Assembly: GCF_000341265.1 (NCBI RefSeq)
Contig: NZ_ANAE01000181.1
Span: forward strand, 1 to 33,409
DNA length: 33,409 nucleotides
Direction of reading: 5' to 3'
DNA from: Nocardiopsis prasina DSM 43845
Lineage (GTDB): Bacteria; Actinomycetota; Actinomycetes; Streptosporangiales; Streptosporangiaceae
Shown here: positions 4,497 through 6,680 of the stretch, one piece after another
Position numbering within the stretch: the stretch's first letter is position 1
Layout: every line of letters starts with the position of its first letter
Notes under the pieces: generated by a model
What the model was told of the DNA's origin: nothing
The model's database searches: none
Seen by the model: the letters and a program-made list of their open reading frames with translations, nothing else
Translations under genes and position numbers: made by a program

Positions 4497-6680
4497 TCAG
4501 TCTGCCCGGTGTTCGGGGCCCTCGGCGCCGTCGCCCCGGTCCTTCGGGGTGTCACCGCCCCTGCGCCGTCCGCCGCGCGGCCCCGGCCGGCCCCGGTCTG
4601 CGTCGCTCCGGCCGCCCTGATCGGCGTCGTAGCGCCCGTAGGCGTCGACGATCTGCCCCACCAGGCGGTGTCGCACGACGTCCTCACTGGTCAGTCGGCA
4701 GAAGGCGATGTCGTCGATATCACGCAGGATGTTCTCGATGGTCCGGAGCCCGCTCGTCTGCCCGCCGGGCAGGTCCACCTGGGTGACGTCACCGGTGACC
4801 ACGATCTTCGACCCGAAGCCGAGCCGCGTGAGGAACATCTTCATCTGCTCGGGCGAGGTGTTCTGCGCCTCGTCCAGGATGATGAAGGAATCGTTGAGTG
4901 TGTTGTGCGTGAGCAGGAAGTCCTCGGTGACGTAGAGGGAGTCCTCCGCCGCCACCTGGATGCACACGCACTCCTCGCTTCCGGCCGGTTCGACGGAGTC
5001 GACGAAGCGCATCGGGCGTCCCCCACCGGTCGCGTCGTACTTCTCCCTCTTGCGTCGGAGCCGGAAGGGCTGAACTCCCTCGGGCAGACGCAGGTCGAGG
5101 CCATGGGTGTCCTTGCGGTAGAAGACCTCCCGTCCCCGGGCGAGGCCCGGCGCACGCCCCTCGGCTGGGCGGGAACGCTCGTAGACCACGCCTCCGAGAG
5201 ACCGGACCAGGAAGGTCACCGCGTCACGCAGGTGCGGGGACGTCGTTCCGTACTGCACGCGGCAGGTGCGCCCCGCTTGTGTGACCGGTCCCCCGTCGGA
5301 GTCGAGCAGGCCCTGGAGCAGGGCCAACCTCACCTCGGCCGTGTTGTAAAGGTAGTCGTCCGGTACGAACTTCGTGTCGGACCTGGTCCCGCACAGTCCC
5401 AGGTCGCGCATGATCGCCGTCACCGGGTTGGCGATGGTGATCACGTCACCCGGCGCGCTCTCGCGGTTGAGAACGTAGTCCACACCGGACTTGTGCCTGA
5501 CGCGAACTCCGGGAAGAAGCGTGTCGAGTGCCTCGGCCAGCTCGGGGTCCTTGGTCGCGAAACTCGGTGTGGTCGAACCAGTGAGGCAACCGTCCCCGAG
5601 GAGCAGGCCCAAGGCGTAGGCGTCCATGGGTACCTCCCGTTCCGGGAAGGCCACGGGCTCGCTGAGCAGAGGGAGCTCGTACCGGCGGTAGTGCGAGCTG
5701 CGCAGCCCGCTCTCGACGATCTCCTTGGCGGTGAGCACCCTGGGCGGCTTGCCTCTGCGTGCGTCGTCCCTGGTCCGGACGGTCCACAGATGGTCCTCTG
5801 AGCACAGCGTGGAGGCACCGTCCTGTGAGGAGAAACGGTAGGTCGCCTTCTCCCCCTGCGGGTACACCCCGATCACCGGGGTCGGTCGCCCGTCAGAGCC
5901 CGTCACCAGGTCACCGACCCGGAGGTCACCGATGGGCCGGAACCCCTCCGGGGTCAGCACCTTGGTGTGCAGTGGCTGCGCCCGACCCCGCATGTACGCC
6001 AGGGGGGCGACCTCGATGGTTCCGGCCGCCATCAGCTTGGGGATGGAGTCCGGGTCGAGCATGTCGTGCAGGGCGTCGTACAGCGGACGCAGGTACGGGT
6101 CGATCTTGTCGTACAGGGTGCCGGGCAGGAACCCCAGGCGCTCCCCGGCCTCGACGGCGGGCCGGGTGAGGATGATCCGGTTGACCTCCTTGTCCTGGAG
6201 GGCCTTCACCGCCTTGGCCATGGCCAGGTAGGTCTTTCCGGTGCCCGCCGGGCCGATGCCGAACACCACGGTGCGCTCGTCGATGATGTCGACGTACCGC
6301 TTCTGGTTCAGCGTCTTGGGGCGGATGGTCTTGCCCCGGTTGGACAGGATGTTGGTGGTCAGCACGTCCGCGGGGCGTTCCTTGCCCGGCGAGCGCAGCA
6401 TGTGGATCATGCGCTCGATGGTGTCGGGGGTGACGTGGGTGCCGCTCTTGGCGAGCTCGATCAGCTCCTCCACGAGGCGGACCACCACGGCCGTCTCCTC
6501 GGGGGTGCCGCTGATCGTGAACTCGTTGCCACGGACGTGGATGTCGCTCTTGAAGGACCGCTCCAGCGCCCGGAGGAGCTCGTCCCCCGAACCCAGCAGG
6601 CTGATCATCGTGTGTTCGTCCGGAACCACGACCTTGACCTGGGTCTCCGGGTCCTGGTTCGTGTGAGTTGACTCGGCCAT
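4497..6680 (-). CDS. phoH: PhoH-family ATPase precursor interrupted by an intein
   Basis: The 727-aa reading frame encodes a PhoH-like P-loop ATPase of 367 aa interrupted by a 360-aa intein (residues 234-593). The N-terminal region (about 15-80) is KH-like; Walker A is [10 protein letters not shown] (141-150); Walker B is IILDEAQN (600-607, after the intein); a later [12 protein letters not shown] motif (627-637) follows. The C-terminal tail (about 688-727) is a low-complexity Arg/Asp/Gly run. Without splicing the two Walker motifs would be about 450 residues apart, so activity should require intein removal. PhoH proteins are ATP-binding RNA helicase-like or RNA-associated proteins, often beside ybeY as here. 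Shine-Dalgarno is weak (AAGG, eight bases before the ATG). Confidence 0.95.
4902..5981 (-). mobile_element. Class 3-type intein with LAGLIDADG homing endonuclease, in PhoH
   Basis: Residues 234-593 of the PhoH frame interrupt the normally contiguous MRGR/TLNDSF junction just before Walker B. The insert begins with Ala (AQPLHTKVL), not Cys or Ser, and ends with His-Asn before a Thr. Block B contains SEDHLW (Trp299), block F contains VCIQV (Cys573), and the +1 residue is Thr594. Trp, Cys and Thr at these places are the signature of class 3 inteins, in which the block F Cys replaces the N-terminal nucleophile. LGLLLGDG (357-364) and [10 protein letters not shown] (454-463) are the two LAGLIDADG motifs, each with its Asp, so the homing endonuclease may be active. 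The block looks lower in G/C and less codon-biased than its flanks, consistent with horizontal acquisition. Confidence 0.93.

Follow-up and report, generated by a model that had tools for sequence, protein, structure and literature searches.

A LAGLIDADG-bearing class 3 intein in the chromosomal PhoH ATPase of Nocardiopsis prasina, and unusual codon usage at the insertion site in intein-carrying genera

The phoH gene on contig NZ_ANAE01000181.1 of Nocardiopsis prasina DSM 43845 (positions 1 to 33,409, hereafter the window) raises two questions: what is the block that interrupts its PhoH domain, and what mark has such a block left on the gene? The 727-residue open reading frame (ORF) contains the PhoH domain (PF02562) that identifies the host as a PhoH/YbeZ ATPase, but in two pieces, which match profile positions 2-117 and 116-204. 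Between them lie 360 residues (precursor residues 234-593) that begin with Ala-Gln-Pro, end with Thr-His-Asn and are followed by Thr594. Joining the N-extein to the C-extein yields a protein of 367 residues. The same boundary is found at the DNA level, as residue 233 abuts residue 594 in 24 of 25 intein-free Nocardiopsis genomes, the 25th (G009) carrying a fragmentary copy. The closest database proteins to the precursor are Nocardiopsis PhoH family proteins. A preliminary interpretation of the DNA, the sequence-only reading, had proposed an intein here, and the split domain match together with the insert-free congeners shows that it is real. Its placement of the insert between the Walker motifs of a housekeeping phoH gene is also correct, because Walker A occupies residues 143-150 and Walker B follows just past the insertion site. 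We conclude that the block is very probably a mobile intein of class 3 that carries a homing endonuclease of the LAGLIDADG family and resides in a chromosomal PhoH/YbeZ ATPase.

Class 3 inteins are characterized by the triplet Trp B:12, Cys F:4 and Thr G:5 (WCT), with Ser or Thr at position +1 in all but one case, according to excerpts of PMC5222942. The Nocardiopsis insert starts with Ala rather than Cys, Ser or Thr and contains Trp B:12 two residues past His B:10, Cys F:4, Thr G:5 and Thr+1. The sequence-only reading had correctly assigned W299 to block B (B:12, intein W66) and C573 to block F (F:4, intein C340). As the third residue of the triplet it had named T594, which is instead the extein residue at +1 (G:8); it is T591 (intein T358) that occupies G:5 and completes the triplet. 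Among 304 loci and 234 proteins surveyed, 338 records had an insert at the PhoH site, 291 of them distinct, and all 291 have the Trp, the Cys, the THN ending and Thr+1 at the same site. These relatives are not independent, since they were collected by similarity, yet a block, site and residue set shared by so many distinct sequences excludes chance. Cys F:4 was also invariant in a separate alignment of 42 rows. In contrast to this constancy, residue 1 varies: 262 of the distinct PhoH inteins begin with Ala, 28 with Ser and one with Cys, the rest of the signature being unchanged. Ser1 is encoded by codons of both kinds (AGY in 11 and TCN in 5 DNA loci, duplicates counted), hence position 1 has changed repeatedly; a FastTree phylogeny of 114 rows gave 14 changes. 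A changing residue 1 beside a constant Cys F:4 fits a mechanism in which residue 1 would not be the nucleophile. WCT inteins with Ser1 or Cys1 were reportedly described by Tori and Perler in 2011. On viral contigs, L211 and L216 encode inteins with the class 3 signature that start with Cys, and L299 encodes one in which Cys F:4 and Thr G:5 are present and B:12 is Asn.

An initial Ala would also be compatible with a class 2 intein. However, class 2 is described in part of PMC4031507 as comprising orthologs of Mja KlbA with Cys+1, and it combines Cys+1 with the absence of Cys F:4. Here the +1 residue is Thr, Cys F:4 and the rest of the triplet are invariant, and the splicing domain groups with class 3, so that a class 2 assignment is extremely improbable.

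The phylogeny of the splicing domain was built from 65 rows and 120 columns after the four signature columns were taken out. Fifty-five rows were labelled class 3, among them L299, assigned from its Cys and Thr although the Trp is missing, and ten were labelled class 1, including five gp41-1-like inteins. One branch separates the 55 class 3 rows from the ten class 1 rows with support of 99/93, and another has the 14 PhoH rows on one side (99/92). Besides PhoH, the class 3 rows represent proteins named by resemblance as RecG-, DnaB- and phage ATPase-like, and others. This topology agrees with the monophyly of class 3 inteins reported in the same partial source (PMC4031507). The predicted fold consists of a HINT (Hedgehog/intein) domain plus an endonuclease whose modelled fold resembles PI-SceI. 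Signature, phylogeny and predicted fold thus bear out a class 3 intein with an Ala first residue. The best sequence match in the PDB, gp41-1, is a class 1 scaffold and counts against this assignment, though the tree groups gp41-1 with class 1. The gp41-1 intein (6qaz, 6riz) resembles the PhoH intein in its THN ending and its block B sequence CSEEHL; unlike the PhoH intein, it is class 1, with Cys1 and Asp F:4. The title of PDB entry 6riz describes gp41-1 with C1A, F65W and D107C. Prompted by the PDB match, we considered an independent origin of class 3 from a gp41-1-like scaffold and rejected it, as gp41-1 groups with class 1 and all class 3 rows fall on one side of the branch.

In the splicing pathway that we propose, which is one of the less common routes of intein excision, Cys573 would attack the Arg233-Ala234 bond after translation to give a block F branched intermediate, from which the N-extein would pass to Thr594 in a block G branched intermediate. 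Cyclization of Asn593 and an O-N shift would then link Arg233 to Thr594 and release the 367-residue PhoH. Splicing of this kind would probably be constitutive. The endonuclease would presumably cleave phoH alleles that lack the intein, and gene conversion would then spread the insert to them.

Table 1. Features of the phoH precursor gene, its intein and the insertion site (window coordinates)
Feature	Position	Strand	Basis
phoH precursor ORF, 727 aa	4497..6680	-	ORF and PF02562
N-extein, residues 1-233, Walker A GPAGTGKT at 143-150	5982..6680	-	
Class 3 intein, 360 residues (precursor 234-593), Ala1 to Asn360	4902..5981	-	
C-extein, residues 594-727 and stop, T+1 into Walker B (FIILDEAQN)	4497..4901	-	
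Trp B:12 (precursor W299, intein W66); His B:10 is intein H64	5784..5786 (Trp)	-	Trp invariant, 291/291
Cys F:4 (precursor C573, intein C340), expected first nucleophile	4962..4964	-	invariant, 291/291
Thr G:5 (precursor T591, intein T358), Thr of WCT	4908..4910	-	
His G:6 and Asn G:7 (precursor 592-593)	4902..4907	-	
Thr+1 (precursor T594), extein residue, expected second branch point	4899..4901	-	
LAGLIDADG motif 1, GLLLGDG, intein 125-131, acidic D130	5589..5609	-	
LAGLIDADG motif 2, GLLDSDG, intein 224-230, acidic D229	5292..5312	-	
Insertion-site codon -1, CGG in own genome, not recoded	5982..5984	-	
Insertion-site codons +1 to +3, ACA CTC AAC in own genome	4893..4901	-	

The endonuclease domain was recognized by PF14528 (E 3.7e-9), and both of its motifs retain the acidic residue. 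The Nocardiopsis PhoH intein is under purifying selection: across 91 pairs of 14 Nocardiopsis inteins, the median ratio of nonsynonymous to synonymous substitution rates (dN/dS) rose from 0.12 in the extein to 0.15 in the splicing part and 0.25 in the endonuclease. We also weighed the view that the element is decaying or dead, with splicing kept and the endonuclease being lost. Congener G004 speaks for it, having lost both acidic endonuclease motifs and 29 residues (endonuclease dN/dS 0.47) while its splicing blocks are intact; this allele represents the stage of decay in the homing cycle. In G028 (L075) the phoH intein is frameshifted at block B and its endonuclease is degenerate, reflecting either a sequencing error or a broken phoH. 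Since both motifs are intact in the window and the endonuclease is constrained outside G004 (dN/dS 0.22), decay is an unlikely description of the element analyzed here.

Occupancy of the site is patchy. Within Nocardiopsis, the insert is present in 15 of 40 genomes, counting the frameshifted G028, and absent from 25. At a threshold of at least 57% identity over nearly the whole length, it was found in 22 of 200 genomes of the family sample and 15 of 396 of the phylum sample, N. prasina itself being counted in both; partial matches occurred in two more phylum-sample genomes (G237 and G241). On the extein tree, occupancy requires 11 changes, compared with a mean of 12.2-12.3 for shuffled labels (126-143 of 500 shuffles as low). 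Being no more clustered than shuffled labels, it points to many gains or losses. Two results weigh against recent mobility within the genus: synonymous divergence (dS) of the intein exceeds that of the extein in all 91 pairs of the 14 unbroken Nocardiopsis inteins, and these inteins form one clade relative to 69 from elsewhere. Mobility within Nocardiopsis may therefore be old, with no sign of recent exchange, and on the same two grounds we rejected recent transfer inside the genus. From these sequence comparisons, the intein looks old in Nocardiopsis and appears to have undergone many losses, or reacquisitions from close relatives.

A conditional intein, in which stress (e.g., oxidation of C573) would hold back or release splicing and thereby switch PhoH activity, has a precedent in the class 3 DnaB intein of M. 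smegmatis, which is redox-sensitive through a Cys pair according to the part of PMC6195587 that treats it. The PhoH intein does have further cysteines (C60, C132, C197, C240 and C338). However, C60, C197 and C338 are variable, with Cys in 152, 52 and 61 of 210 distinct sequences, and C132 and C240, present in 194 and 204 of the 210, lie in the endonuclease part. With the intein-free majority of congeners also against it, we regard such a switch as quite improbable; the suggestion in the sequence-only reading that PhoH activity could be conditional gains no support here.

The sequence-only reading called the find unusual, which does not hold. At E<=1e-3, 5797 proteins match among 8000 candidates scored (PF02562 is present in all 120 among the matches listed), and PMC6195587 (partial text) already aligns class 3 inteins from the PhoH proteins of M. 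fortuitum and M. xenopi. The latter share the PhoH host and the class 3 signature with ours and differ in genus. A PhoH intein is likewise recorded for M. smegmatis in excerpts of PMC7360933, and those of PMC7891396 count 1701 class 3 inteins in nr, 82.5% of them with LAGLIDADG motifs. One surveyed intein (L080) is 100% identical to the PhoH intein of Mycobacterium lacus (P0121), at the same MRGR/T site and with W, C and THN. Among class 3 inteins of DnaB, those of M. smegmatis (6bs8) and M. chimaera (6rix) share WCT, according to their papers, and the HINT fold; these are mini-inteins with Ser+1, whereas the PhoH intein contains an endonuclease and is followed by Thr+1. In the tree, DnaB-type class 3 inteins of actinobacteria lie on the same side as the PhoH intein. 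Our literature search returned nothing joining the terms "intein", "PhoH" and "Streptomyces". The Nocardiopsis PhoH intein is thus of a known and widespread type, one more member of a large group. That group is a good test bed, as residue 1 varies among Ala, Ser and Cys at constant Cys F:4, as the class 3 mechanism predicts.

The second question, what mark the insert has left, led to the codons of the insertion site. The site was defined as 12 bases (codons -1 to +3) and compared with 195 windows of phoH, the expectation for rare codons being taken from the codon usage of the same gene. Background G+C content at third codon positions was equal across groups (0.94-0.96). Streptomyces intein-free ("empty") alleles were the first 60 of 127 listed, and control genera contributed 32 loci to the window-rank scan and 40, after eight were added, to later counts. 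At the residue level, Thr+1-Leu+2 occurs in 14 of 15 occupied versus 9 of 24 empty Nocardiopsis alleles (Fisher p 7e-4), the empties having Ser+1 in 10/24 and Ile+2 in 5/24; independent pairs for these residues gave 4.3 with versus 0.1 (median p 0.125). At the codon level, AGA is codon -1 in 7 of 24 Nocardiopsis empties and accounts for 0.1-0.3% of the Arg codons in the rest of the gene. Of the 195 windows, the site is the most rarely coded in Nocardiopsis empties (z 9.4), in the 20 empties of four further intein-bearing genera (z 9.5) and also in Nocardiopsis occupied alleles. It ranks second in Streptomyces empties (n=60, z 4.6) and 18th in controls (n=32, z 1.4). Among empties of intein-bearing genera, 49 of 104 have at least one rare site codon (14/24 in Nocardiopsis, 15/20 in the four genera and 20/60 in Streptomyces), as opposed to 0/40 controls. 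At least two were counted in 8/24 (expected 0.08), 9/20 (0.22) and 5/60 (0.09), respectively, and in 0/40 controls (0.16). Family genomes outside Nocardiopsis showed the same contrast, with a rare site codon in 16 of 28 empties from five intein genera versus 6 of 115 from 48 genera in which no intein was sampled (genus-level p 2e-5); these 143 genomes are those among the matches listed, 23 of 173 matching genomes not being among them.

Synonymous diversity was compared only among genomes with identical four site residues, so that only synonymous differences remain, and against other protein-conserved windows. No window reached the value of the site in Nocardiopsis empties (n=10; 0.339, 0/114 windows as high), Nocardiopsis occupied alleles (0.221, 0/127), four-genus empties (0.265, 0/73), family occupied alleles (0.242, 0/73) or occupied alleles of genus g4 (0.227, 0/124). 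The site came close to this in Streptomyces empties (1/96 windows as high), Streptomyces occupied alleles (1/94) and new g4 empties (3/118), while the controls were ordinary (0.115, 19/91). This excess of synonymous diversity is the new result. Our literature search, covering mostly titles and the openings of abstracts, found no account of synonymous diversification at a natural intein site.

One tentative explanation, to which we assign a little less than an even chance, is that the endonuclease drove an arms race at the DNA level, in which the site would have diversified by rare synonymous codons, with the PhoH protein kept, in genera where the intein circulates. The changes would be either selected escape from cleavage or scars of mutagenic repair, to which Nocardiopsis empties would add Thr to Ser and Leu to Ile; genera without the intein would show little or no such diversification. 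Several observations weigh against this explanation. Occupied alleles have rare site codons as often as empties (7/14, 12/18 and 21/42, against 14/24, 15/20 and 20/60), so that the pattern is not simply escape in empties, and the own-genome allele is not recoded by the rare-codon score. For 33 new g4 empties a prediction fixed before the data was borne out only in part: 7/33 had a rare codon (expected 4.5, p 0.15; versus 0/40 controls, p 0.003), although three had at least two (expected 0.19) and the site window ranked 2/195. Occupied g4 alleles had a rare site codon in 10/14 versus 1.5 expected. In Mann-Whitney U tests on within-gene percentiles, Streptomyces empties were not separated from controls (p 0.82), in contrast to Nocardiopsis empties (p 0.02) and the four other genera (p 1e-4). 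In the intein-bearing g38, a genus outside the comparison sets, only one of eight listed empties was recoded. Finally, the control genera and the four other intein-bearing genera (g4, g25, g28 and g52) were chosen after the site codons had been seen.

The recoding of occupied alleles, the modest g4 count and the single recoded g38 allele would suit a cause other than homing, such as a signal in regulation or translation, a relaxed choice of codons, or sampling. This is possible, if somewhat doubtful, given that the anomaly peaks at the insertion site (rank 1/195 in two empty groups and in Nocardiopsis occupied alleles) and is not seen in control genera at equal background composition. Homing-driven diversification stays plausible but unproven. 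Site resistance as the whole story was weakened by the equally recoded occupied alleles and the median p of the independent pairs, and co-conversion of a single donor flank by the diversity of site haplotypes (13 different ones among 14 occupied Nocardiopsis alleles and 22 among 24 empty ones). The readings that remain are selected escape, mutagenic repair at the cut, and mixed flanks carried with the intein. A partial parallel is the haloarchaeal MCM-d site, where, according to the available part of PMC10643990, most empty alleles have Pro and occupied alleles Ser, and escaper mutations in the target arose in the laboratory. As in PhoH, the extein residue past the site differs between empty and occupied alleles. 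The MCM-d Pro is thought to block splicing, whereas PhoH empties differ mostly by synonymous changes, plus Thr to Ser and Leu to Ile, which need not do so. The unusual site variability in intein-carrying genera may trace a conflict between insert and host, the host here being a soil actinobacterium. If homing caused it, the site would document, mostly through synonymous codons, a naturally occurring conflict with a selfish endonuclease, and would be relevant to the homing cycle and to gene-drive resistance. The insertion-site pattern is the part of this analysis most worth pursuing.

A phage PhoH bearing this intein was also considered and rejected. The "PhoH" of phage GX15bay (Caudovirales) does not read as PhoH; it has a related insert and adjoins a portal gene, and its name may stem from intein similarity (L221, positions 1501-2532 of MK557849.1). 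Phage records gave 567 matches, of which 40 were listed, and the PhoH DEAQ motif followed the insert in 0 of 25 full-length inserts among 33 relatives on viral contigs, the other eight not being full length.

The ORFs adjoining phoH resemble what we take to be ybeY, a gene for a CBS/CorC-type protein and era. A second PhoH-family gene of the same genome (L002, G000:C162:74460-75071) was matched in one piece and is intein-free. Class 3 inteins also occur at Walker A of actinobacterial proteins that resemble RecG helicases (L058, L059, L094 and L098; GK/AQPL...THN/T). N. prasina has a second class 3 intein at Walker A of a DnaB-like helicase (L078, G000:C161:91238-92473; GK/ALALDT...THN/S). Elsewhere in this genome, a protein resembling amidases (L304, G000:C203:23085-23327) contains an intein-like insert that starts with Cys-Ala-Asp and ends near YYTGN/S.
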